Assembly: GCF_037055355.1 (NCBI RefSeq) | Contig: NZ_CP146350.1 | Span: 5,727,001-5,791,000, forward strand | From: Streptomyces sp. DG1A-41 | GTDB lineage: Bacteria > Actinomycetota > Actinomycetes > Streptomycetales > Streptomycetaceae | DNA: 64,000 bases | Direction: 5' to 3' | Shown: piece after piece, positions 47,813 to 64,000 of the stretch | How the letters are laid out: each line of letters begins with the position of its first letter | How positions within the stretch are numbered: position 1 is the stretch's first letter | Translations under genes and position numbers: made by a program | The notes under the pieces: model-generated | Told to the model about the DNA's origin: nothing | Seen by the model: only the letters and a program-made list of their open reading frames with translations | Databases searched by the model: none

Positions 47813-47824
47813 CTACGCGCGTTA
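47813..47824. promoter_or_regulatory. Nucleoside-regulon operator, copy 1
   Basis: CTACGCGCGTTA, overlapping a -10-like TAATGT at 47823-47828 before the first BMP gene. About 33 bases around it (47798-47832) are nearly identical to those around copy 2. Confidence 0.65.
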
Positions 47825-47879
47825 ATGTGCGCCGAACCGAGTACCCGCTGCGGGGCTTTGGAGAATGGGGAGCTTCAAG

Positions 47880-48923
47880 ATGCGTCGGATTTCCAAACTG
47901 ACCCGCGTCGCGGTGGGGGTCGCGTCGCTCGGGCTCGTCGCCACGGCCTGTGGTGGCACCAGTGGTGAGAGTGGTGGCAGCGACAACAAGGACCGTGGCG
48001 TCGCCATCGCCTACGACGTCGGCGGCAAGGGCGACCAGTCCTTCAATGACGCCGCCTACGCCGGCCTGACCAAGGCAAAGGACGAGTTCGGCTACAAGAC
48101 CGCCGACATCGAGCCCACCGAGGGCGAGACGGACGCGGACAAGGAGCAGCGCCTGGCCTCGCTGGCCAAGCAGGGCTACAACCCGGTCATCGGTGTCGGG
48201 TACGTCTATGGCCCGGCGATGAAGAACGCGGCCGCCAAGTACCCGGACACCACCTTCGGCATCGTGGACTCCGTGGTCGAGGCCAAGAACGTCGCCTCCC
48301 TCGTCTTCGCCGAGGAGCAAGCCTCGTACCTCGCCGGTGTCGCCGCGGCCAAGGCCACCAAGTCGGACGTCGTCGGCTTCGTGGGCGGTGTGGACATCCC
48401 GCTGATCCACAAGTTCGAGGCCGGCTACAAGCAGGGCGTGGCGGACACCAAGCCCGGCGTCAAGGTGCTGTCCCAGTACCTGACCCAGACGGCCGAGGAG
48501 GGCGGCTTCGCCAGCCCCGACAAGGGCAAGGCCGCCGCCGAGGGTCAGATCGAGAGGAAGGCCGACGTGCTCTACGCGGCAGCCGGCCTCTCCGGGCAGG
48601 GCGTCATCGAGGCCGCCGCCAAGGCGAAGGTCTGGGCGATCGGCGTCGACTCCGACCAGTACAAGCAGGCCGCTCTCGCCCCGTACAAGAACTACATCCT
48701 CACCTCCGCCCTCAAGGACGTCGGCGGCGCGGTCTACGCGCTGGCCAAGTCCGTCCAGGACGACAAGCCCCTGACCGGCACTCAGACCTTCGACCTGAAG
48801 GTCAACGGCGTCGGCCTCTCCGAGGCGAACCCCGAGTACGCCAAGATCCCGGGTCTCAAGGCAGCCGTGGACAAGGCCAAGGAAGGCATCGACGACGGTT
48901 CCATCAAGGTCAAGACCGAGTAG
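47880..48923 (+). CDS. BMP-family nucleoside-binding lipoprotein, copy 1
   Basis: 347-residue extracytoplasmic lipoprotein of the basic membrane protein (PnrA/BmpA) family, which captures purine nucleosides for an ABC transporter. Lipobox LVATAC is at about 20-25. Family signatures include VAIAYDVGGKGDQSFNDAAY, NPVIGVGYVYGPAM, VGFVGGVDIPLIHKFEAGY and WAIGVDSDQYKQAA. ATG 47880 is chosen over ATG 47865 because GGGGAG ends seven bases before it. It is a tandem paralogue of the next gene, and both stand before an ATPase and two permeases of matching type. A strong hairpin (48956-48992) follows. Confidence 0.94.
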   Translation: MRRISKLTRVAVGVASLGLVATACGGTSGESGGSDNKDRGVAIAYDVGGKGDQSFNDAAYAGLTKAKDEFGYKTADIEPTEGETDADKEQRLASLAKQGYNPVIGVGYVYGPAMKNAAAKYPDTTFGIVDSVVEAKNVASLVFAEEQASYLAGVAAAKATKSDVVGFVGGVDIPLIHKFEAGYKQGVADTKPGVKVLSQYLTQTAEEGGFASPDKGKAAAEGQIERKADVLYAAAGLSGQGVIEAAAKAKVWAIGVDSDQYKQAALAPYKNYILTSALKDVGGAVYALAKSVQDDKPLTGTQTFDLKVNGVGLSEANPEYAKIPGLKAAVDKAKEGIDDGSIKVKTE

Positions 48924-48955
48924 GACGAGTCGTACGTCAACGGTCTGCGACAGCC

Positions 48956-48992
48956 GGAGCGGGCGAGCACCCTGGGTGCCCGCCCGCTCCGC
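48956..48992 (+). terminator. Terminator between the two BMP genes
   Basis: Arms 48956-48973 and 48975-48992 pair over 18 bp with one mismatch. The second BMP gene therefore likely has its own promoter, in line with its own operator at 49177. The remaining 49000-49170 holds only short (ACCAGGA)-like repeats at 49016-49045 and no gene. Confidence 0.8.
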
Positions 48993-49176
48993 CGTTCCCC
49001 GGGGGTATCCAGGGACCAGGAACCGGAGACCAGGAGCCAGGAACCAGCAAGCACGTCCGGGAATCGGATCACCCAGCGCCACGCCCCGTTCGCGGTCGGC
49101 AACCACCGGCCAAGAGCCGGTGATGGCTTGGCCACGGGCGCATAACAAGGTGGACAGAAGGGGTTTCCAGGTAGGT

Positions 49177-49188
49177 CTACGCGCGTTA
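49177..49188. promoter_or_regulatory. Nucleoside-regulon operator, copy 2
   Basis: CTACGCGCGTTA with -10-like TAATGT at 49187-49192. Flanks match copy 1 (GTTTCCAGG upstream, GTGCGGCGAA downstream). Confidence 0.65.
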
Positions 49189-49261
49189 ATGTGCGGCGAA
49201 ACCAGCGCCGCAGCCGACCCGTCCGGCGCTTGTACAAGCTTGTACGACAGGAGCACCACTC

Positions 49262-50308
49262 ATGCGCCGGATTTCCCGGATCACGGTCGCAGGCGCAGCG
49301 ACCGCTTCCCTGGCCCTCGCCCTCGCCGCCTGCGGCAGCACCTCGACCTCCGGGTCGTCGGACTCGAAGGGGAACAAGGGCCTCGCCATCGCGTACGACG
49401 TCGGCGGCAAGGGCGACCAGTCCTTCAACGACGCCGCGTACGCGGGTCTGGAGCAGGCGCAGAAGGAGTTCGGCTACGAGACGGCCGACGTGGAGCCCAC
49501 CGAGGGCGAGACGGACGCCGACAAGGAGCAGCGCCTGGTCTCGCTGGCCAAGCAGGGCTACAACCCGGTCATCGGTGTCGGCTACGCGTACGCCTCGGCC
49601 GTCAAGGGCGCCGCGGAGAAGTTCCCGAAGACCACCTTCGGCATCGTCGACGACGCCACGATCAACGCCAAGAACGTCGCCGACCTCGTCTTCAGCGAGG
49701 AACAGGCCTCGTACCTGGCCGGTGTCGCCGCCGCCAAGAGCACCAAGTCGAACGTCGTCGGCTTCGTGGGCGGTGTGGACATCCCGCTGATCCACAAGTT
49801 CCAGGCGGGCTTCGAGCAGGGCGTCAAGGACACGAACCCGAAGGTCAAGGTCCTCTCGCAGTACCTCACCCAGACGGCCGAGGAGGGCGGCTTCTCCAGC
49901 CCCGACAAGGGCAAGACGGCCGCCGAGGGGCAGATCGAGAAGAAGGCCGACGTGGTCTACGCGGCCGCCGGCCTGTCCGGCCAGGGTGTGATCGAGGCCG
50001 CCGCCGCCAAGAAGGTGTGGGCCATCGGTGTGGACTCCGACCAGTACAAGCAGGCCGCCCTTGCCAAGTACAAGGACTTCATCCTCACCTCGGCGATGAA
50101 GGACGTCGCCAAGGCGGTGTACAACCTGGCGAAGTCGGTCGAGGACGGCAAGCCCGAGACCGGTATCGTTCGTGGCGATCTGAAGACCGGCGAGGTGAGC
50201 CTGTCGGACTCCAACCCGAAGTTCGCGGACGACGCCGAGCTTCAGGAAGCCATCAAGACGGCCAAGGAGAAGATCATCAACGGCGAGATCAAGGTCAAGA
50301 GCAGCTGA
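49262..50308 (+). CDS. BMP-family nucleoside-binding lipoprotein, copy 2
   Basis: 348-residue paralogue of the preceding lipoprotein, similar throughout (IAYDVGGKGDQSFNDAAYAG, DIPLIHKFQAGFEQG, VWAIGVDSDQYKQAALAKYK). Lipobox LALAAC is at about 17-22. ATG 49262 has AGGAG with ideal spacing. The duplication may give two affinities or nucleoside preferences for one transporter; inference only. Downstream hairpin at 50353-50390. Confidence 0.94.
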   Translation: MRRISRITVAGAATASLALALAACGSTSTSGSSDSKGNKGLAIAYDVGGKGDQSFNDAAYAGLEQAQKEFGYETADVEPTEGETDADKEQRLVSLAKQGYNPVIGVGYAYASAVKGAAEKFPKTTFGIVDDATINAKNVADLVFSEEQASYLAGVAAAKSTKSNVVGFVGGVDIPLIHKFQAGFEQGVKDTNPKVKVLSQYLTQTAEEGGFSSPDKGKTAAEGQIEKKADVVYAAAGLSGQGVIEAAAAKKVWAIGVDSDQYKQAALAKYKDFILTSAMKDVAKAVYNLAKSVEDGKPETGIVRGDLKTGEVSLSDSNPKFADDAELQEAIKTAKEKIINGEIKVKSS

Positions 50309-50329
50309 CGACCGACTGCTGAGCAGGCA

Positions 50330-50345
50330 GTAACCCCGGGGTTAC
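50330..50345. other. 16-bp perfect palindrome
   Basis: GTAACCCCGGGGTTAC, 22 bp after the second BMP stop and just before the terminator. Role unknown; possibly part of the transcript end. Confidence 0.5.
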
Positions 50346-50352
50346 GTCCGCT

Positions 50353-50390
50353 CAACGGGGTACGGGGAGGCTGCTCCTCGTACCCCGTTG
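50353..50390 (+). terminator. Terminator after second BMP gene
   Basis: Arms 50353-50369 and 50374-50390 pair over 17 bp (one G-T pair) around a four-base loop. Confidence 0.8.
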
Positions 50391-50427
50391 TCGCGGTGCG
50401 TCGGCCCCTTTGTATGCCGTAGGGGCG

Positions 50428-50439
50428 CTACGCGCGTAG
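50428..50439. promoter_or_regulatory. Nucleoside-regulon operator, copy 3
   Basis: CTACGCGCGTAG, a perfect palindrome, 28 bp before the likely translation start of the ABC operon. Confidence 0.65.
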
Positions 50440-50467
50440 ACGACCCCCGTCCCCAGGAGAGTGCGCC

Positions 50468-52086
<1,619 letters not shown>

Positions 52087-52087
<1 letters not shown>

Positions 52088-53208
52088 TGAAGAAGTTCGA
52101 CAGGGAGCGCGTGCTCCTCGCGGTGGCCGGACCGGTCATCGCGCTCGCCGTGGCCTTCGTCCTGAGCGCGATCGTGCTGGTCGCGTCGGGCAAGAACCCC
52201 GTCGAGCCGTTCGCCCTCATGTTCGAGCAGATCGGGTTCTCGGACATCCAGGTGCTGGTCATCAACCAGGCGTCGATGTACTACATCGCGGCGCTCGCGG
52301 TGGCCATCGGCTTCCGGATGAACCTGTTCAACATCGGCGTCGACGGCCAGTACCAGCTCGGCGCGATGCTGGCCGCCATCGTCGGCGCCCACGTCGCTCT
52401 GCCGGCCGGCCTCCAGATCCCGCTGCTGCTCCTGACCGCCGTCCTCACCGGCGCCTTCTGGGCCGGCATCGCCGGTGTCCTCAAGGTCACCCGCGGCGTC
52501 AGCGAGGTCGTCGCCACGATCATGCTCAACGCGATCGCGACCTCCGTGATCGCCTACCTGTGGCTGCCGAACGTCTTCGGTGTGAAGGTCGGCAACAACA
52601 ACACCACCGGCGAGATGCACGAGTCCGGCTGGATCCCCGGCATCAACATGGGCGCGGCCGGCGAGATCTACGGCCTGGTGCTGCTCGCCGTCCTGCTCGG
52701 CATCGGCTACTGGGTCGTCCTCAACCGCACCCGCTTCGGCTTCGACCTGCGCGCCTCCGGCGCCTCGCAGACCGCCGCCGCGGCCAGCGGCGTGGACCCG
52801 GGGCGCATGGTGCTCAGCGCCATGCTGATCTCCGGCGGCATCGCGGGCCTCGCCGGCCTGCCGATCCTGCTCGGCGACACCCACACCTACAGCCTCAACT
52901 TCCCCACGGGCATCGGCTTCCTCGGCATCGGCATCGCCCTGCTCGGCCGCAACAGCCCCGTGGGCATCGCCTTCGCCGCCCTGCTGTGGGCCTGGCTCGA
53001 CAAGGCCTCGCCCGAGCTGGACTTCCACGGCTACGACAAGGAGATCGCGGTCATCATGCAGGGCCTGATCGTGCTCTCGGTCGTCGTCTCCTACGAGGCC
53101 GTCCGCGAGTGGGGCCTGCGCCGCCAGCAGCGCCGGGTCGGCGCCGAACTGGCCGCCGGTCACGTCCTCGGCAACAACAACACCACGAAGGAGGTGGCTG
53201 GCCGATGA
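52087..53208 (+). CDS. Nucleoside ABC transporter permease 1
   Basis: 373-residue membrane protein of the BPD_transp_2 (RbsC/NupP-like) family with about nine to ten helices. Diagnostic text includes YYIAALAVAIGFRMNLFNIG followed by VDGQYQLGAMLAA, VTRGVSEVVATIMLNAIATS and GGIAGLAGLPILLGDTHTYS. It pairs with the next gene to form the channel for nucleosides. Its ATG overlaps the ATPase stop by one base; its stop overlaps the next start (ATGA). Confidence 0.94.
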
Positions 53209-54470
53209 CCACCGCGACCGACCTCAACCAGCCCACGCTGCAGCCCGCGGCGCCGACCGGCCGCCGCCTGTCGTGGCCCGTCCTGCTGCTGATCATCGCC
53301 GGAGGCCTGGCGCTCACCTCGATCGTCCGCCTCATCACCGGCGCCGACGGCATCACCAACGTCAGCCAGATGTCCACCGCGCTCCAACTCGCCGTGCCGA
53401 TCGGCCTCGCCGGTCTCGGCGGCCTGTGGGCCGAGCGCGCGGGCGTGGTCAACATCGGCCTCGAGGGCATGATGATCCTCGGCACCTGGTTCGGAGCCTG
53501 GGCCGGTTTCCAGTGGGGCCCGTGGACCGGTGTCCTGGTCGGCATCCTCGGCGGCGCGATCGGCGGCCTGCTGCACGCCTTCGTGACCGTCACCTTCAAC
53601 GTCAACCACATCGTCTCCGGTGTGGCCATCAACATCCTCGCCCTCGGCGCCACCCGCTACCTCGCGCCCCTCGCCTTCGAGGGCCACACGGGCGGCTCCG
53701 CCAAGCAGTCCCCGGCGGTCGACTCCCTCGGCAGCTTCACGGTGCCGGGACTGTCCGACGCCCTGCGGGACCTCAACGCCCACGGCTGGTTCCTCATCTC
53801 CGACATCGCCGGCCTGCTCGGCGGCCTGGTCACCAACGTCTCCTGGCTGACCCTGATCGCCGTCGCGCTGATCCCCGGCACCTGGTGGGTGCTGTGGCGC
53901 ACCGCGTTCGGCCTGCGGCTGCGCTCCTGCGGCGAGAACCCGGTGGCCGCCGAGTCCCTCGGCGTCAACGTCTACAAGTACAAGTACATCGCCGTGATCA
54001 TCTCCGGCGGTCTGGCCGGCCTCGGCGGTGTCTTCCTGTCGATCGTCGCCAACCCCTTCTACCTGGAGGGCCAGGTCAGCGGCCGCGGCTTCATCGGCCT
54101 CGCGGCGATGATCTTCGGTAACTGGATGCCGGGCGGCCTCGCCCTCGGCGCAGGGCTTTTCGGCTACACCGACAGCCTCAACCTGCGCGGCGGCTCCGCG
54201 AACGTCCACGCCCTGCTGCTGCTCGGCGCGCTGCTGCTGGTCATCGGCGCGATCTGGCTGGTGATCCGCAAGAGGTACGTCCCGGCCGTGTGCACGCTGG
54301 TCGCCGGCGCCCTGGTGTTCACCTGGTACGCGACCACCGACGAAGTCCCGAACCAGGTCGTCTCGGCCACGCCGTACGTCATCACCCTGGTGGTCCTCGC
54401 CCTGTCCGCCCAGCGCCTGCGGATGCCGAGGGCGAACGGCATGCCGTACCGGAAGGGGCAGGGCAAGTGA
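53205..54470 (+). CDS. Nucleoside ABC transporter permease 2
   Basis: 421-residue second permease of the same family, longer by an N-terminal extension and two extra C-terminal helices. GLGGLWAERAGVVNIGLEGM and HAFVTVTFNVNHIVSGVAIN, then GRGFIGLAAMIFGNWMPGG, are typical of the BMP-linked NupQ-like group. ATG 53205 shares four bases with the previous stop. The next gene starts at GTG 54467 inside its stop, so the transporter and the catabolic enzymes are one transcript. Confidence 0.94.
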   Translation: MTTATDLNQPTLQPAAPTGRRLSWPVLLLIIAGGLALTSIVRLITGADGITNVSQMSTALQLAVPIGLAGLGGLWAERAGVVNIGLEGMMILGTWFGAWAGFQWGPWTGVLVGILGGAIGGLLHAFVTVTFNVNHIVSGVAINILALGATRYLAPLAFEGHTGGSAKQSPAVDSLGSFTVPGLSDALRDLNAHGWFLISDIAGLLGGLVTNVSWLTLIAVALIPGTWWVLWRTAFGLRLRSCGENPVAAESLGVNVYKYKYIAVIISGGLAGLGGVFLSIVANPFYLEGQVSGRGFIGLAAMIFGNWMPGGLALGAGLFGYTDSLNLRGGSANVHALLLLGALLLVIGAIWLVIRKRYVPAVCTLVAGALVFTWYATTDEVPNQVVSATPYVITLVVLALSAQRLRMPRANGMPYRKGQGK

Positions 54471-54871
54471 CCGACGCAGGCCCGGACGTCGACTGGGAGA
54501 AGCTGCGCGCGGTGGCCCGGGACGCCATGTCCCGGGCGTACGCCCCGTACTCCGGCTACCCGGTCGGCGTGGCGGCCCTGGTCGACGACGGCCGGATCAT
54601 CTCCGGCTGCAACGTAGAGAACGCCTCGTACGGGCTCGCCCTGTGCGCCGAGTGCGGCCTGGTGTCGGAGCTGCACAACACCGGCGGCGGCAGGCTGACG
54701 CACTTCACGTGCGTCGACCGGAACGGCGAGTCGCTCGTCCCGTGCGGCCGCTGCCGCCAGCTGCTGTACGAGTTCGGCGGCCCGGACCTGCTGCTTGAGA
54801 CACCGGCGGGCATCCTGCCGCTGTCGGAGATGCTGCCGCAGGCCTTCGGGCCCGGCCACCTCAGCAAGTAA
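54467..54871 (+). CDS. cdd: Cytidine deaminase
   Basis: 134-residue homotetramer-type enzyme turning cytidine or deoxycytidine into uridine or deoxyuridine. The catalytic motif is ISGCNVENASYGLALCAECG (Cys-Ala-Glu), with the second zinc pair in VPCGRCRQLL. GTG 54467 overlaps the permease stop (GTGA). Being cotranscribed with the importer, it processes incoming pyrimidine nucleosides. A hairpin separates it from deoA. Confidence 0.96.
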   Translation: MTDAGPDVDWEKLRAVARDAMSRAYAPYSGYPVGVAALVDDGRIISGCNVENASYGLALCAECGLVSELHNTGGGRLTHFTCVDRNGESLVPCGRCRQLLYEFGGPDLLLETPAGILPLSEMLPQAFGPGHLSK

Positions 54872-54879
54872 CTCCCGTG

Positions 54880-54908
54880 CGGCCCTCCTGAGTCGATCAG
54901 GGGGGCCG
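54880..54908 (+). terminator. Hairpin between cdd and deoA
   Basis: Arms 54880-54891 and 54897-54908 pair over 12 bp (one G-T pair) with a five-base loop. It may attenuate or process the transcript before deoA. Confidence 0.55.
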
Positions 54909-54943
54909 TACGGCTTCTGGAATCCTCGGAAGGAAGCCAAGCC

Positions 54944-56227
54944 ATGGCCATGGACGCCATCTCCGTCATCCGCACCAAGCGGGACCGCGGCGAACTCAGC
55001 GACGAGCAGATCGACTGGGTCATCGACGCGTACACCCGCGGGGAGGTGGCCGACGAGCAGATGTCGGCCCTCGCGATGGCCATCCTGCTCAACGGCATGA
55101 ACCGCCGCGAGATCGCCCGCTGGACGGCCGCGATGATCGCCTCCGGCGAGCGCATGGACTTCTCGTCCCTGTCCCGCCCGACGGCCGACAAGCACTCCAC
55201 GGGCGGCGTCGGCGACAAGATCACGCTGCCGCTCGCCCCCCTGGTGGCCGCCTGCGGCGCGGCGGTCCCGCAGCTGTCGGGCCGCGGCCTCGGCCACACG
55301 GGAGGCACGCTCGACAAACTGGAGTCCATCCCCGGCTGGCGCGCCCTGCTCTCGAACGAGGAGATGCTGCACGTCCTGGACACCACCGGCGCGGTGATCT
55401 GCGCGGCGGGCGACGGCCTGGCCCCGGCCGACAAGAAGCTGTACGCCCTGCGCGACGTCACGGGCACGGTCGAGGCGATCCCGCTGATCGCCTCCTCGAT
55501 CATGTCGAAGAAGATCGCGGAGGGTACGGGCTCGCTGGTCCTGGACGTGAAGGTGGGCACGGGCGCCTTCATGAAGACCCTGGAGGACGCCCGCGAACTG
55601 GCCGCCACGATGGTCGGCCTGGGCACGGACCACGGTGTGAAGACGGTCGCGCTCCTCACGGACATGTCGACCCCGCTCGGCCTGACGGCCGGCAACGCCC
55701 TGGAGGTCCGTGAGTCGGTGGAGGTCCTGGCGGGCGGCGGCCCGGCGGACGTGGTCGAGCTGACGATCGCCCTGGCACGCGAGATGCTGGACGCCGCCGG
55801 GGTGAAGGACGCCGACCCGGCGAAGGCCCTGGCCGACGGCTCGGCGATGGACGTCTGGCGCCGCATGATCACGGCCCAGGGCGGCGACCCGGACGCGGCG
55901 CTTCCGGTGGCCCGCGAACAGCACCTCATCAAGGCCCCGGCCTCGGGCGTCCTCACTCGCCTCGACGCCTACGGCATCGGCGTCGCTGCCTGGCGCCTCG
56001 GTGCGGGCCGCGCCCGCAAGGAGGACCCGGTCCAGGCGGGCGCGGGCGTGGAGATGCACGCCAAGCCGGGCGACACGGTGCGGGAGGGCCAGCCCCTGCT
56101 GACCCTCCACACGGACACGCCGGATCGCTTCGAGTACGCGCTGGAGTCGGTCGAGGGCTCGTACGACATCGCCGCTCCGGGGACGGCCTTCACGGCGTCG
56201 CCGGTGGTGCTGGAACGTATCGCCTGA
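54944..56227 (+). CDS. deoA: Thymidine phosphorylase (pyrimidine-nucleoside phosphorylase)
   Basis: 427-residue enzyme splitting thymidine or deoxyuridine with phosphate into base and deoxyribose 1-phosphate. The family signature is SGRGLGHTGGTLDKLESIPG (about 111-130); KHSTGGVGDKITL holds phosphate-binding residues. ATG 54944 has GGAAGG upstream; an alternative Met lies two codons in. 72 bp after cdd in the same direction, so the import, deamination and phosphorolysis steps are together. A hairpin follows at 56250-56281. Confidence 0.96.
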   Translation: MAMDAISVIRTKRDRGELSDEQIDWVIDAYTRGEVADEQMSALAMAILLNGMNRREIARWTAAMIASGERMDFSSLSRPTADKHSTGGVGDKITLPLAPLVAACGAAVPQLSGRGLGHTGGTLDKLESIPGWRALLSNEEMLHVLDTTGAVICAAGDGLAPADKKLYALRDVTGTVEAIPLIASSIMSKKIAEGTGSLVLDVKVGTGAFMKTLEDARELAATMVGLGTDHGVKTVALLTDMSTPLGLTAGNALEVRESVEVLAGGGPADVVELTIALAREMLDAAGVKDADPAKALADGSAMDVWRRMITAQGGDPDAALPVAREQHLIKAPASGVLTRLDAYGIGVAAWRLGAGRARKEDPVQAGAGVEMHAKPGDTVREGQPLLTLHTDTPDRFEYALESVEGSYDIAAPGTAFTASPVVLERIA

Positions 56228-56249
56228 CCAGGCGGTTTCTCATTCGGGT

Positions 56250-56281
56250 GAACGGGATCGGTGGACCCGCCGGTCCCGTTC
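56250..56281 (+). terminator. Terminator after deoA
   Basis: GAACGGGA at 56250-56257 pairs with TCCCGTTC at 56274-56281, with a further CGG/CCG pairing inside. It probably ends the nucleoside operon. Confidence 0.6.
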
Positions 56282-56320
56282 GGCATGCTGGGATCGGTGA
56301 CGCACCGATAGGAGACCGCC

Positions 56321-56905
56321 ATGAGCGCACTCACCGTGAGCCAGGACCCCGACCAGAACTGGGACGACCTCGTCCGGTTCTGGGAGGACATGGAATGGCC
56401 TGAGGGCAGCAAGGTGGAGATCATCGAGGGGATCATCACCGTGTCACCTGCTCCCGCGTCCCGCCACAACGTGATCGCGGCCCGCATCCAGCGTCGCCTC
56501 TACTCCGCGATCCCCGAGGACTGGGAGGTCTTCCAGAAACTGGCGATCGCCGTACCGTCACGTCTGGGCATGCTCATCCCGGACCTGCTCGTGGCGCCCG
56601 TGCAGGAGTGCGCGGAGGCGGACTCCCACATCCCGGCGGCCCTGGCCGAACTCGTCGTCGAGGTGACCTCCAAAGCCAACGCCCGTCACGACCGCGTCAG
56701 CAAGCCCGCCGCATACGCCACGGCCGGGATTCCGCTCTACCTCCTCATCGACCGCTGGGCTCCCGGAGGCCCCACCGCGACGCTCTACGGGGAGCCGAAG
56801 GGCGATGTCTACCGCGTGCTGAGCGCCGTGAAGTTCGGTGACCCCATCAAGCTGCCGGACCCGTTCGACGTGACGATCGACACCGGTGAGTTCCCGGTCG
56901 ACTGA
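56321..56905 (+). CDS. Uma2-family (DUF820) protein
   Basis: 194-residue protein of the Uma2 family, a PD-(D/E)XK nuclease-like fold expanded in Streptomyces and cyanobacteria with unknown function. WPEGSKVEIIEGIITVSPAP (about 26-45) and LIPDLLVAPVQ...LVVEVTSKANARHDRVSKPA hold the likely Asp and Glu-x-Lys/Ser site residues. ATG 56321 follows ATAGGAG. It is an intact relative of the remnant at 15390-15823. Confidence 0.85.
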   Translation: MSALTVSQDPDQNWDDLVRFWEDMEWPEGSKVEIIEGIITVSPAPASRHNVIAARIQRRLYSAIPEDWEVFQKLAIAVPSRLGMLIPDLLVAPVQECAEADSHIPAALAELVVEVTSKANARHDRVSKPAAYATAGIPLYLLIDRWAPGGPTATLYGEPKGDVYRVLSAVKFGDPIKLPDPFDVTIDTGEFPVD

Positions 56906-56908
56906 CCG

Positions 56909-57829
56909 TCACCCCAGCAACGCCGCGACCACCACCAGAACCGGCACCGCCAACACCGTCGACAACAAGATCGCCTCCCTCGCCAGCACCTCGCCCACCC
57001 GGTAACTGCTCGCGTACGTGAACAGGTTCTGCGCCGCCGGAAGTGCCGACGTCACCACCACGTCGAGCAGGGAGGCCCCGTGGAGGCCGAAGACGCCCAC
57101 GGCGAGCGCCCAGGCGACCAAGGGCTGGATGACCGCCTTGAGGGTCACGGCGAGGAGGACAGGGGCCCGTTCCGCGCCTCGCAGCGGGATCGTGCTGCCG
57201 CGCAGCGAGATGCCGAAGGCCAGAAGCACCGCCGGGACCGACATGTTGGCGATGAGAGTCAGGGGGTCCATCAAGGGGCCCGGTACCGTGAGACCCGACG
57301 CCGACGCCGCCACACCGGCCAGGGAGCCCAGGGCTATCGGGTTGCGCAGGGGCGTGAGCAGGCGCTGCCACAGGGGCCGCTTCTCGCCGCCGCTCGCCAG
57401 GTCCAGGACCGTCAGCGCCACCGGCGTAACCCCGACCAGCTGGAACAGCAGCACCGGCGCGACCAGCGACGCGTCGCCCAGCACGTACACCGCGATCGGG
57501 ATGCCGAGGTTCCCCGAGTTGACGTAGCTGGAGCACAGCGCGCCGATCGTCGTCCGGCCCACACCCCAGCCGCGCGCGGCACCCACCGCCACGAAGACAC
57601 CCGCCACCGCCGCCGTGCTCATCGCCGTGACCAGCAGCCGGTCGGAGAAGATCACCGACAGGTCGGCCTGGGCGAGCGTCGTGAAGAGCAGGGCCGGAGA
57701 CGCCACGTGGAAGGCCAGCCTGGTCAGCACCTCGCGCCCGCCGTCGCCCAGATGTCCACGGCGACCGATCAGATAGCCGACCCCGATGACGACCGCGATG
57801 ACCGCGAAGCCGCTCAGCACCCCCTGCAC
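56909..57829 (-). CDS. AEC-family (auxin efflux carrier-like) transporter
   Basis: 306-residue membrane permease with about ten helices in two similar halves. SGFAVIAVVIGVGYLIGRRG opens it; SSYVNSGNLGIPIAVYVLGD carries the conserved NxGNxGxP-type motif, and VVTSALPAAQNLFTYAS is the matching second-half motif. Family members export or import organic acids and related anions; the substrate here is unknown. ATG 57829. Convergent with the Uma2 gene, with stops 3 bp apart. Confidence 0.88.
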   Translation of the reverse strand: MQGVLSGFAVIAVVIGVGYLIGRRGHLGDGGREVLTRLAFHVASPALLFTTLAQADLSVIFSDRLLVTAMSTAAVAGVFVAVGAARGWGVGRTTIGALCSSYVNSGNLGIPIAVYVLGDASLVAPVLLFQLVGVTPVALTVLDLASGGEKRPLWQRLLTPLRNPIALGSLAGVAASASGLTVPGPLMDPLTLIANMSVPAVLLAFGISLRGSTIPLRGAERAPVLLAVTLKAVIQPLVAWALAVGVFGLHGASLLDVVVTSALPAAQNLFTYASSYRVGEVLAREAILLSTVLAVPVLVVVAALLG

Positions 57830-57965
57830 GGCGCCCCCTCACCGGAGATGCGGGCGTCGGACAGCGCGGGAGGGGCAGTTGCATGGTGCATACAGCCAAC
57901 CCTCCGGGGCAGGCCGTCCCGAGGTCAATGTGATCCTTACGGCGCCGAGAGGACGGACCGCCGCG

Positions 57966-58352
57966 ATGAGTTACCGCCGCCCGCCCGGTCTACCGATCGT
58001 GGACGCCATGACACCGCCCGTGCTCGTGCTCCCCGGCCCCGTCGCCCGGGACGAGGTGAGCGGACTGAGCGACGACGTGAGGGCACTGCTGCAAGCCGGC
58101 CGTGCCCGGGTCGTGGTGTGCGATGTCGGAGGCCTCGGGCCGCCGGGGCTCGCCGCCGTCGACCTGCTCGCACGCCTCCAGCTCGCCGCCCGCAGGGCCG
58201 GGGGCCGGATACGACTGCGCGACCCCGACCCGGCCCTACGCGCCCTTCTCGACCTGGTCGGGCTCCGCTTCGAGGTGGAGGGGCAGGTCGAAGAGGGGGA
58301 ACCAGCGCTGGGTGTCGAGGAAGCAGTGGAACCCGGTGATCCGGCCGTCTGA
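57966..58352 (+). CDS. STAS-domain protein, 3' end antisense to ECF sigma gene
   Basis: STAS-type protein of 128 residues from ATG 57966 or 114 from ATG 58008. VLVLPGPVARDEVSGLSDDV, RVVVCDVGGLGPPGLAAVDL and RIRLRDPDPALRALLDLVGL follow the anti-sigma-antagonist fold, but Asp/Gly replaces the usual phosphorylatable Ser-containing DSSG motif. The last 39 codons (58236-58352) lie antisense to the sigma gene and read as Glu-rich text, so the true domain ends near 58260. The STAS region itself is convincing; the tail is a by-product of overlap. Confidence 0.7.
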   Translation: MSYRRPPGLPIVDAMTPPVLVLPGPVARDEVSGLSDDVRALLQAGRARVVVCDVGGLGPPGLAAVDLLARLQLAARRAGGRIRLRDPDPALRALLDLVGLRFEVEGQVEEGEPALGVEEAVEPGDPAV

Positions 58353-59252
58353 GATCTCCAGCACCTGGACCGCCCACGGCGTGAAGCCGCCCTTCTCCGG
58401 GTCCGGCTTGTACTGGGCGAACCCCGGCAGGCCGTTGACCTGGACCGGCACCAGCCGGGAGCCCGCGCAGGGCGCGCCGAGGGTGGTCATGAAGCCGGTG
58501 ATGTCGCCGACGCCGGTCAGCCACAGGTCGAACGGCGGCATCGTCATCACCGCGTCCTCGTGCAGCAGGGCTGTCAGCGCCGACATGTCGTAGCCCTCGA
58601 AGGCCGCCACATAGCGGTCCAGCAGCTTCTGCTGGTCCTCGTCCAGCGGGTCGGAGACGGTCGCGTCGGCGCCCGGCTCCTGCCGCTCGGCCAGTGTCGC
58701 GCGGGCCCGCTGGAGGGCGCTGTTGACCGACGCCACGGACGTGTCCAGCAGCTCGGCGACCTCGCTGGCCTTCCAGGCCAGCACCTCGCGCAGGATCAGC
58801 ACGGCCCGCTGCTTGGCCGGCAGCTGCTGCAGGGCGGCCATGAAGGCGAGCCGCACCGACTCCTTGGCTATCGCCGCCTCCGCCGGGTCGGCGGTCGTGG
58901 GCAGCACACGGGCGTCCGGCATGGGCTCCAGCCAGGTGTTGTCAGGGCGGGGGGTGAGGGCCGCCTGGGCGAGCGGGGTGGACTCGGTCAGGTCCATGGG
59001 CCTGGCGCGCTTGTTGCCCGCGGTCAGCATGTCCAGGCACACGTTGGTCGCGATGCGGTAGAGCCAGGAGCGGAGGCTGGAGCGGCCCTCGAACTTGTCG
59101 TAGCTGCGCCAGGCGCGGACCATCGTGTCCTGTACCGCGTCCTCGGCCTCGAAGGAGGAGCCGAGCATCCGGTAGCAGTACCCCGTCAGCTCCGTCCGGT
59201 GTGCCTCCAGCCTGGCGTCCAGGTCTGTCGGTGTCGCCGTGCCGTTCGTCAT
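58236..59252 (-). CDS. ECF sigma factor with C-terminal SnoaL-like domain (SigG/SigJ type)
   Basis: 338-residue sigma factor. Region 2 is ELTGYCYRMLGSSFEAEDAV through VRAWRSYDKFEGRSSLRSWL and YRIATNVCLDML; region 4 is LPAKQRAVLILREVLAWKAS and VASVNSALQRARATLA. Residues about 205-335 form a SnoaL/NTF2-like fold (RYVAAFEGYDMSALTALLHE, ISDGRITGFHCFLDTQRWFP). In such ECF groups the C-terminal domain replaces a separate anti-sigma factor and tunes activity. ATG 59252. No anti-sigma gene adjoins, in keeping with this. Its 3' end overlaps the STAS gene by 117 bp. Confidence 0.93.
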   Translation of the reverse strand: MTNGTATPTDLDARLEAHRTELTGYCYRMLGSSFEAEDAVQDTMVRAWRSYDKFEGRSSLRSWLYRIATNVCLDMLTAGNKRARPMDLTESTPLAQAALTPRPDNTWLEPMPDARVLPTTADPAEAAIAKESVRLAFMAALQQLPAKQRAVLILREVLAWKASEVAELLDTSVASVNSALQRARATLAERQEPGADATVSDPLDEDQQKLLDRYVAAFEGYDMSALTALLHEDAVMTMPPFDLWLTGVGDITGFMTTLGAPCAGSRLVPVQVNGLPGFAQYKPDPEKGGFTPWAVQVLEISDGRITGFHCFLDTQRWFPLFDLPLHLEAEPDQVEKGA

Positions 59253-59371
59253 CGTCCACCCACCCCTGTGGAATTTCTGTCACGCGCCATCGCGCCCAGC
59301 ACTTCGGAAGCTACCGCAGCCCACTGACAACGGCCCCCCGAGCGCACGAAAGCGCAGGCAGGAGCGGTGCT

Positions 59372-60520
59372 TCACACCAGCTGTTTCACCGACATCAGCA
59401 GATGCCGGTGCTCCCCGGCCATCTCCCCGGCCGCCTCGGCAGCCCCCTCGCCCGGCACCGCGTGCAGCAGCGCCCGCTGCCCCGCCCCCAGCAGTTCCAG
59501 CCGTACGCGCGGAGTCTCGAAGGACGTCAGCGCGTCCAGCAGATAGGCCGGGTTGAAGGCCATCGGCACCTCGTCGGCGCCCGTCAGCGTGGCCGGCAGC
59601 CGCTGGGCCGCCACGTCGTCGCCGTCGCCGGCGCGGAGCATGACGGACCCGTCGGACGAGAAGTCCAGCCGCACCGGACTGTTCGCCTCCGCCACCACCG
59701 CGACCCGCCGCACGGCCTCCGCGAGCCCCTCGCACTCCACTTCGGCGACCGCGGCCCCCGCCATGTCGAACAGCGACCTGTACGTCGGCAGCCGTCCGTC
59801 CAGGAGCCGCAGCGCCGTCCGCGTCCGCCCGCCCCCGAAGCCGATCAGTCCGCCGCCACCGGCCGGGTCCCAGCCGATCAGCACGTCCCCGCAGCGGCCC
59901 AGCGACCGCGCGACGTCCAGCAGGCGCCGCGCGGGCAGCAACGCGTCCACCACACCGTCGGCCGCCGCACCCGGCCGCCACTCCAGCCGCCGCACGGCGT
60001 ACCGGTAGCGGTCCGAAGCGGCGAGTGTCATCTCCTCGCCGTCCAGACGCAGTTGGACCCCCGTCAGCAGCGGCAGCGTGTCGTCGCGCCCGGCCGCCAC
60101 CGCGACCTGGGCGACGGCCGTCGCGAACGCGGCGCCGTCCACCGTGCCGTACGGCGCGGGCGGCACCGGCAGGGCCGGGTACTCGGTGACGGGCAGCGTC
60201 GACAGCCCGAACCGCGTACCGTCCGCCTCCACCGTGAACCGCGAGGCCTCCAGCGCGCAGCTCACCGGCCCGTCCGGCAGCACCCGGCAGACGTCCAGCA
60301 GCCGCCGCCCCGGGACGAGCACCCGCCCGGGTGCCGCGACCTCGGCGTCGGCCTCCACCCGTACCGCCGCCTCGAAGTCGAACCCCGTCACGGCCAGCCG
60401 CCCCGCGTCCGCCTCCAGCAGCAGCCCGCCCAGCACCGGCACCGGCGTCCGCGCGGGCAGCGCCCGCACCGCCCGGCCCACGGCCTCGGCGAACGCCGTA
60501 CGGTCGATGCGGAACTCCAT
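59372..60520 (-). CDS. Second DNA polymerase III beta (DnaN-like) sliding clamp
   Basis: 382-residue protein with three clamp domains. MEFRIDRTAFAEAVGRAVRA opens domain 1 as in DnaN; domain 2 has LPLLTGVQLRLDGEEMTLAA and ASDRYRYAVRRLEW; domain 3 ends EHRHLLMSVKQLV, like the HRYLLMPVRL terminus of DnaN. The true dnaN sits near the replication origin with dnaA and recF, none of which are here, so this is a paralogue. It could serve a translesion polymerase or be a specialised clamp. ATG 60520 is followed upstream by a 101-bp gap to the MFS stop. Confidence 0.88.
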   Translation of the reverse strand: MEFRIDRTAFAEAVGRAVRALPARTPVPVLGGLLLEADAGRLAVTGFDFEAAVRVEADAEVAAPGRVLVPGRRLLDVCRVLPDGPVSCALEASRFTVEADGTRFGLSTLPVTEYPALPVPPAPYGTVDGAAFATAVAQVAVAAGRDDTLPLLTGVQLRLDGEEMTLAASDRYRYAVRRLEWRPGAAADGVVDALLPARRLLDVARSLGRCGDVLIGWDPAGGGGLIGFGGGRTRTALRLLDGRLPTYRSLFDMAGAAVAEVECEGLAEAVRRVAVVAEANSPVRLDFSSDGSVMLRAGDGDDVAAQRLPATLTGADEVPMAFNPAYLLDALTSFETPRVRLELLGAGQRALLHAVPGEGAAEAAGEMAGEHRHLLMSVKQLV

Positions 60521-60621
60521 GAAAAATCCCCCTGGGCCGAGTCCGGTGGTCAGCAGACGCGGACGTTATCCGCACCCACTGACAACCGGCCCCGACCAGG
60601 GGGAACGGCCGGACTCCGGGC

Positions 60622-61890
60622 TCAGGCGGCCGTGGCCAGGCGCTGCACCCGTGCCGCCCGCGTCCCGAAGACCGTGATCGTGACGACGCCCAGGACCGCC
60701 AGCAGGCCGACCCCGACCGTCCCGGCCCAGCCGCCGGCGTGGAAGGCGATCGCGCCGACCGTGCTGCCCGCGCTGGAGCCGATGTAGTACGCCGACTGGT
60801 AGAGCGCCGAGGCCTGTGCGCGGCCGGTCGTGGCCGTCTTGCTGACGGCCGAGGACGCCACCGCGTGGCCCGCGAAGAAGCCCGCCGTGATGAGGACCAG
60901 GCCCAGCAGGATCAGCGGGAGGGAGCCGGCCAGGGACAGCAGCAGACCCGCCGCCGTCGTACCGCCGCCCGCGTACAGCGCGCCCCGGCGGCCCAGCCTG
61001 CCCACCAGGCGGCCGGCCGTCGACGCCGACACCGTACCGACGAGGTACACCAGGAAGACCGAGCCGATGATGCCCTGCGGCAGCGAGAACGGTGCCTCGG
61101 TCAGCCGGTAGCCGATGACCGTGTACACGCCACCGAACACCGTCATGAACAGCGCGCCGATCGCGTACAGCCGGCACAGCAGCGGGTTGGACAGGTGGTC
61201 ACGGACCGTCCGGGCCAGCACGCGCGGGCGCAGCGAGCCGGTCTTGAAGTTCTTCGGTGCCGGGAGCAGCAGCCGGAAGGCCACCGCGCACGCCACCGCG
61301 AGCGCGCCGATCACACCGACGGCGACCCGCCAGCCCCACTCCTGGGCGACCCAGCCGGTGATGACCCGGCCGCTCATCCCGCCGACGCTGTTGCCCGCGA
61401 CGAACAGTCCGATCGCGGTGACCAGCGCCTTGGGACTGACCTCCTCCGCGAGGTACGCCGTCGCCGACGCCGGCAGTCCGGCCAGCGCCGCGCCCTGGAG
61501 CGCCCGCAGCACGACCAGGACCCCCAGCGACGGGGCGAAGGGTGCCAGCAGTCCGACCGTCACCGCCACGGCCAGCGAGGCCGTCATGACCGCACGCCGC
61601 CCGAAGCGCTCCGACAGGGCGCTCATCGGCAGGACGAACAGCGCCAGCCCGCCCGTCGCGGCGGCCACCGTCCAGCTCGCGTCGCTCGCCGTCACCCCGA
61701 ACTCGCCGGAGATCAGCGGGAGCAGCGCCTGCGTGGAGTACAGCAGCGCGAAGGTCGCGACACCCGCGAGGAAGAGGGCGAGGCTCATCCGGCGGTAGCC
61801 GGGCCCGCCCGGGGACATACGTGAGTCGGCGGCAGGGACAGAGGCATCGGCGCCCACGGTGGTGGACGCCCCGGTACTGGCGGGAGACAT
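60622..61890 (-). CDS. MFS transporter (YnfM-like efflux protein)
   Basis: 422-residue twelve-helix major facilitator. After a 30-residue polar start, MSLALFLAGVATFALLYSTQ begins helix 1; LSERFGRRAVMTASL is the loop 2-3 motif, and RALQGAALAGLPASATAYL matches motif C-type sugar/drug efflux proteins. Likely exports small metabolites. ATG 61890 is divergent from a LysR gene; the 63-bp gap has an imperfect dyad TCCAATGCATGGA at 61922-61934 that could bind LysR. Confidence 0.9.
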   Translation of the reverse strand: MSPASTGASTTVGADASVPAADSRMSPGGPGYRRMSLALFLAGVATFALLYSTQALLPLISGEFGVTASDASWTVAAATGGLALFVLPMSALSERFGRRAVMTASLAVAVTVGLLAPFAPSLGVLVVLRALQGAALAGLPASATAYLAEEVSPKALVTAIGLFVAGNSVGGMSGRVITGWVAQEWGWRVAVGVIGALAVACAVAFRLLLPAPKNFKTGSLRPRVLARTVRDHLSNPLLCRLYAIGALFMTVFGGVYTVIGYRLTEAPFSLPQGIIGSVFLVYLVGTVSASTAGRLVGRLGRRGALYAGGGTTAAGLLLSLAGSLPLILLGLVLITAGFFAGHAVASSAVSKTATTGRAQASALYQSAYYIGSSAGSTVGAIAFHAGGWAGTVGVGLLAVLGVVTITVFGTRAARVQRLATAA

Positions 61891-61953
61891 GCTTCGAAAC
61901 TACGTACGCGCCCACTGATCCGTCCAATGCATGGAACCGCCATAATCGTTCCC

Positions 61954-62916
61954 ATGGCGCATCAGCACAGTTCAGCGGCTCGACTGTCACCATCCGGTGA
62001 CACAGAAGACATGGCACAGATGTCGAAGGTGCTGGCCCCCCGCCTCGCGTACTTCGCCGGCGTGGCCCGCACCGAGCACGTCACCCGCGCCGCCCAGGAG
62101 ATGAACGTCCCCCAGTCGACCCTCTCCCGGGCCATGGCCCGCCTGGAGCAGGACCTCGGCGTGGATCTCTTCGCCCGCCACGGCCGCACGGTCTCCCTCA
62201 CCCCGGCCGGGCGTACCTTCCTCACCTCCGTCGAGCGCGCCCTGGCCGAGGTCGAGCGCGCCGCCGAGCAGGTCCGGGCCGACGCCGACCCCGCCACCGG
62301 CAAGGTCGCCTTCGGCTTCCTGCACACCATGGGCGCCGAGACGGTCCCGGGCCTCCTCCAGGCCTTCCGCGCCGATCATCCGCGCGTCCGCTTCAGCCTC
62401 GTCCAGAACTACGGCGAGGCCATGCTCGAACGCCTCCGCGCCGGCGAACTGGACCTGTGCCTGACGTCCCCCGTCCCCGACGCCCCCGACCTGGTCGCCC
62501 GCCGCCTCGACGAGCAGAAACTCCGCCTGGTCGTCCCGGCCGACCACCCCCTCGCCACCCGTCGGCGCATCCGCCTGGCCGAAGCGGCCGACGAGACCTT
62601 CGTCACCCTGGAACCCGGCTACGGCATGCGCCGCATCACCGACGACCTCTGCAAGGAGGCCGGCTTCAAGCCCCGCATCGCCTTCGAGGGCGAGGAGGCG
62701 GAAACCCTGCGGGGCCTGGTGGCAGCGGGCCTCGGCGTCGCCCTCCTGCCCCCACCGGCCGTCCCCCGCCCGGGAGTGGTCGAACTGACGGTCACGTCCC
62801 CCCGAGCGGCCCGCGAAATCGGCGTGGCCTGGCTGGAGGGCCACCCGGACACACCCCCGGTAGCAGCCTTCAAGAAGTTCCTGCTCTCAAGAAGAGGCAG
62901 CTTGTTGCCGACCTAG
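61954..62916 (+). CDS. LysR-family transcriptional regulator
   Basis: 320-residue regulator. The winged HTH is LAYFAGVARTEHVTRAAQEM followed by NVPQSTLSRAMARLEQDLGV (about 31-70). The effector domain begins GKVAFGFLHTMGAETVPGLL and contains LDLCLTSPVPDAPDLVARRL. It probably controls the divergent MFS gene. ATG 61954 has CATAAT eight bases upstream at 61941-61946, suggesting a very short or absent leader. In-frame Met at 62011 is the alternative favoured by some homologue lengths. Confidence 0.92.
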   Translation: MAHQHSSAARLSPSGDTEDMAQMSKVLAPRLAYFAGVARTEHVTRAAQEMNVPQSTLSRAMARLEQDLGVDLFARHGRTVSLTPAGRTFLTSVERALAEVERAAEQVRADADPATGKVAFGFLHTMGAETVPGLLQAFRADHPRVRFSLVQNYGEAMLERLRAGELDLCLTSPVPDAPDLVARRLDEQKLRLVVPADHPLATRRRIRLAEAADETFVTLEPGYGMRRITDDLCKEAGFKPRIAFEGEEAETLRGLVAAGLGVALLPPPAVPRPGVVELTVTSPRAAREIGVAWLEGHPDTPPVAAFKKFLLSRRGSLLPT

Positions 62917-63008
62917 CGGCGCGGCTGTATCCATGTGCGGCTCCGCCGCGCGGGCGCGAGCAACCACCGACAACCCGCACCCCGAAACCACAAGCACCTC
63001 AAACGGCG

Positions 63009-63767
63009 CTACCGCCTCGAAGGACTGAACCCCGCAGCCAGTGGCATCCGCAACCCCAACGGCGGTGGCGCGGCAAACGCATCCCGCACAGGCCGGGACA
63101 CGTCCCGCCCGAACAGGACCCCCATCACGAAGTCCTCGGCCAACGCGAGGACTTCGTCCCGGTACTGACTCAACCCGTGCCCGTCCGCATGCACTTCGAA
63201 CCGGCACACATCCCGATTCGCCTTCTTCGCACGCGCCGCCAGCCGGAACGACAACTCGGGATCCGTCCGCGCGTCGTTCGTGCCGTGCACGATCAGCACC
63301 TGCCGCCCCACCAGCTGCTTCACCGGTTCGGGTGGCGCGGCCACATCCTCCTCCGGCAGCCAGGGAGCGAGCGCCAGTACGGAGTTGACGGCCTCGTGCC
63401 CAGCCGCCCGCAACCCGGCCCGGCCGCCCATGCCGATACCGGCGAGGCAGACGGGAACGTCTCCGTAACGCCGTACGACCTCGTCGGCCGCCCAGGCCGC
63501 GTCGGCCGCGAGGTTGGCCTCGCTGCCGTTCCAGCCGCGGTAGCGGTAGTGCACCACGTGTGTGACGAGACCCTCGTCCCGGCCCGCGCGGGCCAGGCGG
63601 CGCCCCAGGGCGCGTACGGAGGCGGTCGCCACCATGGGAGACGGTCTGCGGCCGGAGACCTCGTCGCCGCCGGGGAGCAGCAGCACGACGCCGCTCACCG
63701 CCGACGGCGCCGGACCGAATGTCCTGCCCAGCCGGGCCCTGCGAACCGGCGTCGGTTGGTGTGCCAT
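63009..63767 (-). CDS. Alpha/beta hydrolase-fold protein with altered nucleophile elbow
   Basis: 252-residue protein of the dienelactone-hydrolase-like fold. VVLLLPGGDEVSG holds the oxyanion region; D165 in VHGTNDARTDP and H197 in EVHADGHGLSQY fit the catalytic acid and histidine. The nucleophile elbow, usually G-x-S-x-G, reads G110-I-G112-M-G114, with Gly in the Ser position. It may be a non-catalytic or unusual member. ATG 63767. Convergent with LysR; the 92-bp gap 62917-63008 holds no gene. Confidence 0.8.
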   Translation of the reverse strand: MAHQPTPVRRARLGRTFGPAPSAVSGVVLLLPGGDEVSGRRPSPMVATASVRALGRRLARAGRDEGLVTHVVHYRYRGWNGSEANLAADAAWAADEVVRRYGDVPVCLAGIGMGGRAGLRAAGHEAVNSVLALAPWLPEEDVAAPPEPVKQLVGRQVLIVHGTNDARTDPELSFRLAARAKKANRDVCRFEVHADGHGLSQYRDEVLALAEDFVMGVLFGRDVSRPVRDAFAAPPPLGLRMPLAAGFSPSRR

Positions 63768-63862
63768 GACAGAACAGTGTCAGAAGCGCGGGTGTACTCG
63801 ACCCGTCCTTGGGGTCACCGTTAGGTATCGACGGAAACGCAAAGGATACGAGGACCCGCCAT

Positions 63863-63874
63863 CTACGCGCGTAG
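63863..63874. promoter_or_regulatory. Nucleoside-regulon operator, copy 4
   Basis: CTACGCGCGTAG, perfect palindrome, 16 bp before the adenosine deaminase ATG. The -10-like TAGAGT at 63879-63884 puts transcription start at or near the ATG (leaderless). Confidence 0.65.
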
Positions 63875-63890
63875 GAGTTAGAGTGCGGAA

Positions 63891-64000
63891 ATGACGAGCC
63901 AGACCATCGCGAACACCCCGACACCGGAGCAGATCCACCGGGCGCCCAAGGTTCTGCTGCACGACCACCTCGACGGCGGCCTGCGTCCCGCCACGATCGT
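63891..64000 (+). CDS. add: Adenosine deaminase, N-terminal part (cut by window edge)
   Basis: First 36 codons only. [18 protein letters not shown] carries the His-x-His metal site (HDHLDGG) that opens adenosine deaminases, which turn adenosine into inosine. No spaced ribosome site precedes ATG 63891, consistent with a leaderless transcript from TAGAGT. It shares its upstream palindrome with the nucleoside transport genes 13-16 kb away. Confidence 0.9.

Follow-up and report, generated by a model that had tools for sequence, protein, structure and literature searches.

In Escherichia coli, the nucleoside regulons of DeoR and CytR comprise deoCABD, cdd, udp, nupG and tsx, and PurR regulons (LacI-type in E. 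coli, PRTase-type in Bacillus subtilis) place purine synthesis and purine transport genes under a single factor. Streptomyces recycle nucleic acids from dead neighbours and from lysis of their own mycelium during development and antibiotic production, and many of their antibiotics either are nucleosides or require a supply of purines. We analysed a 64,000-nucleotide stretch (hereafter the window) of the genome of Streptomyces sp. DG1A-41, bases 5727001–5791000 of an 8.99-Mb contig, in which a 12-bp element recurs before genes of nucleoside use. As in the DeoR/CytR regulons, nucleoside transport genes and deo/cdd catabolic genes share the element, but here secreted nucleases, nucleotidases and purSQ also carry it, and the E. 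coli operators are presumably unlike it in sequence. Purine synthesis and purine transport genes share it as in the PurR regulons, whereas the core of the set is here nucleoside catabolism; we take the perfect form of the element, CTACGCGCGTAG, to be unlike both the E. coli PurR box and the B. subtilis PurBox. We consider it very probable (roughly 80%) that the element serves as operator in a family-wide regulon for nucleic-acid scavenging and nucleoside use, controlled by one transcription factor that is most likely a dimeric repressor.

The first-pass annotation of this DNA had placed the element at positions 47813, 49177, 50428 and 63863 of the window, and all four places are exact matches to the general 12-mer CTACGCGCGTWR. 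Two copies had been described as perfect palindromes, and those at 50428..50439 and 63863..63874 are indeed CTACGCGCGTAG, while 47813..47824 and 49177..49188 hold the imperfect form CTACGCGCGTTA. Each site lies directly before a gene of nucleoside use, as had been claimed, namely two BMP lipoprotein genes, an operon of ABC transporter genes with cdd and deoA, and the adenosine deaminase gene add; profile matches back these identities. The 10-base core CTACGCGCGT, judged in that annotation to be too frequent for chance, has six strand-matches in the window against a shuffle mean of 0.29, and no shuffle out of 100 reached at least six. With two mismatches allowed, the 12-mer gave 14 matches against a mean of 19.4 and was not enriched; the signal in the window is therefore confined to the strict site.

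The whole 8.99-Mb genome contains nine places of CTACGCGCGTWR, of which eight, four of them outside the window, precede nucleoside or nucleotide genes. The site at 5804882 stands before the deoxyribose-phosphate aldolase gene (deoC), followed by two aldehyde dehydrogenase genes, and the one at 5808833 before the purine-nucleoside phosphorylase gene (punA), followed by a phosphohexomutase-family gene. A tandem double site at 2155327 precedes the gene of a secreted protein of the twin-arginine translocation (TAT) type, belonging to the 2',3'-cyclic-nucleotide phosphodiesterase/5'-nucleotidase group (Pfam 5_nucleotid_C, under the NCBIfam equivalog cut-off), and the site at 4201716 precedes a second secreted 5'-nucleotidase-family protein. 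The ninth, an exact palindrome at 8711671 (L014:5672), lies before a membrane-type protein gene without Pfam match or adjoining nucleotide gene and is unexplained. Many hits unrelated to nucleoside genes would have counted against the first-pass annotation; this genome has one such place among nine.

Conservation before orthologues, which the first-pass annotation had made a touchstone of its proposal, was followed in the cluster regions of 20 genomes that represent 17 genera of the family; three of these (G438, G447 and G452) reach the DeoR-family gene only, so that the footprint covers 17 genomes of 15 genera, and the site is kept in all 15. Sixteen genomes gave 17 add rows, in which 16 sites were exact and one had one mismatch; one of these rows is a second adenosine deaminase in G007, 61% identical and confirmed by Pfam, whose gene start has a separate palindrome. 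The 17 deoC rows comprised nine exact sites and eight with one mismatch, and the 16 punA rows twelve exact sites, three with one mismatch and one with two. The core was exact at BMP genes in all 14 genomes with BMP rows, including G432 and G435, whose BMP proteins are only 29–33% identical to those of the window. An exact site was found at the ABC gene in 6/14 genomes and a one-mismatch site at deoA in 2/14 (G444 and G433), and no site within two mismatches lay upstream of cdd (11 rows), pmm (17 rows) or the DeoR-family gene (20 rows). Across the 17 genomes the flanks diverge while the site stays at the add, deoC, punA and BMP genes. Consistently, 71 distinct aligned sites gave 1.0–2.0 bits inside the element (values inflated, partly by construction, by picking rows on their core match), and outside it at most 0.28 bits, save for three adjoining bases (0.84, 0.57 and 0.37); the flank values are unaffected by that choice.

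Exact palindromes were present in 40/40 same-genus genomes, with two to six in each and 157 in total against 17 for the reversed pattern, and in 120 of 121 genomes of the family (16/17 genera). The sole family genome without one, G440, has near-matches at the expected genes: CTACACGCGTAG at add, CTACGCGAGTAG at deoC and CTACGCGCGTTA at punA. In a class-wide sample of 394 genomes, the palindrome occurred in 12 of the 354 outside the genus, once in eleven of them and three times in G126. Outside the family, ten loci of seven genomes were inspected by eye (four of those 12 genomes and three order-level genomes), and no nucleoside-salvage gene lay downstream of the site at any of the ten. The three G126 sites lie among insertion-sequence (IS)-like and unrelated genes, and two extra-family sites (L087 and L089) fall inside genes for the purine enzyme IMP dehydrogenase (L087 with Pfam support), which we count as chance.

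The position of the site relative to the promoter is fixed within each gene family. In the window, the -10-like boxes said to adjoin the sites are there: TAATGT at 47823..47828 begins with a TA that also belongs to the operator, a second TAATGT (49187..49192) overlaps the next operator, and TAGAGT (63879..63884) begins 4 nt past the add site. Measured from the palindrome end, TANNNT lies at +1 in 17/17 deoC rows; at +4 in 14 of 17 add rows, with +3 in one and none in two rows of 61–65% identity; and at -2 in 13 of 16 BMP rows. The right end of the BMP-type CTACGCGCGTTA is occupied by TAATGT, TAAGCT or TACGGT, and because this TAnnnT overlaps the right half, CTACGCGCGTTA is asymmetric and two of the window's copies are imperfect. 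An element acting in the RNA was rejected, since the site at the BMP genes, lying before the -10 box or overlapping it, would not be part of the transcript. The constant distance to the -10 within each gene family would also suit binding by an activator, or recognition of the element by a special sigma factor, instead of a repressor operator; yet the spacing is unequal between families (-2, +1, +4 and +12), and in secreted nuclease and RNase Sa-like genes (described below) the site follows the start codon, neither of which is what a sigma element or a class II activator would show. The element is, besides, a 12-bp palindrome over core promoter sequence. As the sites lie over or beside the -10 at offsets that differ between genes, a repressor fits and an activator or sigma element does not; we hold the latter to be unlikely and, from the geometry, the factor acting at the site to be most likely a repressor.

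The first-pass annotation had named a regulon of nucleoside uptake and salvage, which stands as far as it goes but is incomplete, the site being carried also by genes for a secreted nuclease, a purine permease and purSQ. Since one-mismatch places are as numerous as those of a reversed pattern, weak sites were trusted only where orthologues conserve them. Eight of 22 one-mismatch sites in the own genome adjoin nucleotide-related genes (two of these in the nucleotidase promoters already counted), compared with 1 of the 15 reversed-pattern loci examined among 26 places, a uridine-kinase-like gene just under the Pfam cut-off. Candidate sites also lie at PhoX, Exo_endo_phos and CN_hydrolase genes (L298–L300). 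Conservation was tested for purSQ, the permease and the nuclease; the same-genus genomes are related, so that the counts are not independent. At the purS-purQ promoter, all of 19/19 same-genus genomes have the site (18 with one mismatch, one with two), against none of 11 outgroup rows. The purine permease gene (Pfam Xan_ur_permease) has it in 19/19, with the identical letters CTACGCGCGGAG in 17, and in none of eight outgroup rows. For the secreted nuclease, which is of GmrSD_C type, 16 of 18 same-genus loci have CTACGCGCGT at the gene start, 15 after the extrapolated start codon and one just before it; of the two exceptions one is truncated where its contig ends and the other has an unalignable N-terminus, and G017, with a broken match, is outside the 18. 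As these three sites are conserved in the genus, the regulon extends to purSQ, the purine permease and the secreted nuclease.

Additional targets emerged from sites elsewhere in the family, with genes named by eye. Ten other same-genus genomes contributed 40 further sites, 20 of them before nucleoside or nucleotide genes: 5'-nucleotidases of type A (seven) and type B (eight, one confirmed by Pfam), and a single site each for BMP, punA, deoC, add and a second add; four of the 20 belong to cluster genes that lie on separate contigs. Beyond the main cluster, 16 other genera have 43 sites, all of which were inspected, and 20 precede nucleotide-related genes, namely BMP, 5'-nucleotidase, deoA, an NCS1 cytosine/purine permease, an RNase Sa-like ribonuclease, purS/Q, purN (in two genera), and purK and purB (in one genus each); Pfam assigned Transp_cyt_pur, Ribonuclease, PurS, GATase_5, Formyl_trans_N, PurK_C and ADSL_C to representatives. 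A GmrSD_C nuclease gene in G440 raises this number to 21/43, and two of the 43 sites lie by a secreted protein without Pfam match (L246 and L247). Both G007 and G003 have a second adenosine deaminase gene that carries the site. In the RNase Sa-like genes of four genera (L274, L276, L278 and L280), it occupies codons 5–8 and uses the leucine codon CTA, which is rare in this group. Separately, TACGCGCGTAG lies about 80 nt upstream of one secreted-type protein gene without nucleotide link in three same-genus genomes (L198, L208 and L052), and genes that by eye encode family-5-type solute-binding lipoproteins follow the site in three genera (L213, L263 and L264).

Several observations weigh against the reading of the element as the operator of one regulon. 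Half of the 40 further same-genus sites have no adjoining nucleotide gene, about 20 of the 43 sites in the 16 other genera have no nucleotide link, and the one-mismatch places in the own genome number 27 against 26 for the reversed control. At punA, TANNNT lies at +12 in only 9 of 16 rows, the others having +13, +10, -1, -2 or none. Moreover, none of the nine exact sites of the own genome is followed by a regulator gene, and the regulator was not found. A compositional or structural accident (runs of CGCGCG, a Z-DNA-prone tract or inherited promoter similarity) could draw on that equality of one-mismatch numbers and on the GC-rich (guanine- and cytosine-rich) genome, but it is hard to reconcile with exact-site counts of 157 against 17, with targets that are coherent, with a site that stays constant amid diverging flanks, or with its recurrence at a second add and, in other genera, at purN, purK, purB and RNase Sa-like genes. 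Exact-site counts, the orthologue footprint and same-genus conservation together refute this accident in substance, and we give it next to no credence.

Regarding the regulator, a weak candidate is a DeoR-family protein (L013:6049-7011) whose gene lies about 2.2 kb from the punA site and which would be a sugar-phosphate-sensing repressor. It has HTH_DeoR and DeoRC sensor domains, it is 75–93% identical in 19/19 other family genomes searched, and in most genomes whose contigs show the neighbourhood its gene lies close to punA and deoC. Among the order-level outgroups, three have only paralogue-like matches of 40–44% and a fourth has none at E 1e-30, so that inside the family and order the presence of the protein tracks the operator. 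Farther out, relatives (47–70% identity, E 1e-50) occur in 34 genomes outside the genus, of which one has the palindrome and 33 lack it, although SEVTVRRD, which we take to be the recognition helix, is kept in 17 of 20 such relatives inspected. In six f19-family genomes (L215–L220) the relative adjoins a sugar-type ABC ATPase gene, and the 260 bp upstream hold six or seven GATC where the locus would predict about 2.2; a different DeoR operator may be present there. In the window's family, the DeoR promoters share another conserved block, and CTACGCGCGTAG is absent from them even with two mismatches allowed. The best NCBIfam resemblance of the protein is to AgaR/GlpR, under the cut-off, and on the E. 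coli DeoR model PRK10681 it scores 73 bits, below the equivalog cut-off of 244. Phylogenetic profile, own-promoter footprint and outgroup neighbourhoods thus weaken the case for this protein, and we think it improbable that it is the factor sought. An AsnC/Lrp gene in G442 (L282) has CTACGCGCGTTA over its own -10, but as an autoregulated regulator this family was rejected, a site with at most one mismatch being present at 0/80 loci among the best 80 of 322 relatives. A TetR gene lies at a site in G434 (L256), a single occurrence.

By gene order, SCO4920 of Streptomyces coelicolor is presumably the orthologue of the DeoR-family gene near punA. SCO4920, of the same DeoR regulator family, belongs to a computed network module, for which the accessible text gives no operator (PMC3224704), and neither 'nucleoside' nor 'CGCGCG' occurs in the main text of that article. 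It also appears among the regulator genes in a carbon-catabolite study (PMC4848846). The open-access literature searched contained no paper on this operator or regulon, and papers with the motif string were, by their titles, not about Streptomyces regulation. As far as these searches show, the regulon operator is new, although of a familiar kind.

We propose that secreted nucleases and 5'-nucleotidases would produce nucleosides outside the cell, that these and free bases would be taken up by the BMP lipoproteins, the ABC transporter and the purine permease, and that Add, Cdd, DeoA, PunA and DeoC, with the aldehyde dehydrogenases, would break them down, de novo purine synthesis (purSQ) falling under the same site. 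The factor would bind between -35 and -10, over the -10 or just past the start codon, blocking polymerase or its escape, until released by a nucleoside-derived ligand. In its broadest form, towards which we lean slightly, one repressor of the Streptomyces family with a purine- or nucleoside-derived signal would govern every stage of the path: secreted RNases and DNases, 5'-nucleotidases, uptake, salvage and de novo purine synthesis. Selection would even have placed the strict 12-bp operator within the opening codons of genes for secreted nucleases, forcing CTA in the RNase Sa-like genes. With a strict operator and about a dozen targets, the identity of the factor that couples nucleic-acid breakdown to the purine economy is open to direct testing, and the regulator should be retrievable with a short DNA bait.

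The window's genes, operators with CTACGCGCGTTA and -10-like boxes are all on the + strand, the two perfect palindromes being strandless. The BMP/PnrA-type substrate-binding lipoproteins are encoded at 47865..48923 (PF02608, 186 bits) and 49262..50308 (PF02608, 201 bits). The ABC operon comprises an ATPase gene (50516..52087; PF00005), permease 1 (52087..53208; BPD_transp_2, PF02653), permease 2 (53205..54470; NCBIfam ABC_B6_perm_1 on the enclosing frame, 119 bits, under the cut-off of 465), cdd for cytidine deaminase (54467..54871; NF004064, 183 bits, cut-off 74) and deoA for thymidine/pyrimidine-nucleoside phosphorylase (54944..56227; NF004490, 646 bits, cut-off 269). The start of the ATPase gene is uncertain: upstream of GTG 50516 its frame is open (50472–50516), by eye as far as an ATC codon behind AGGAG, and this rare ATC may be the true start. 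The add gene runs from 63891 to the window end at 64000 and continues beyond it (PF00962, 353 bits on L012:1892-3049); its ATG lies 6 nt after TAGAGT (63863–63893 region), and a leaderless add transcript is therefore predicted.

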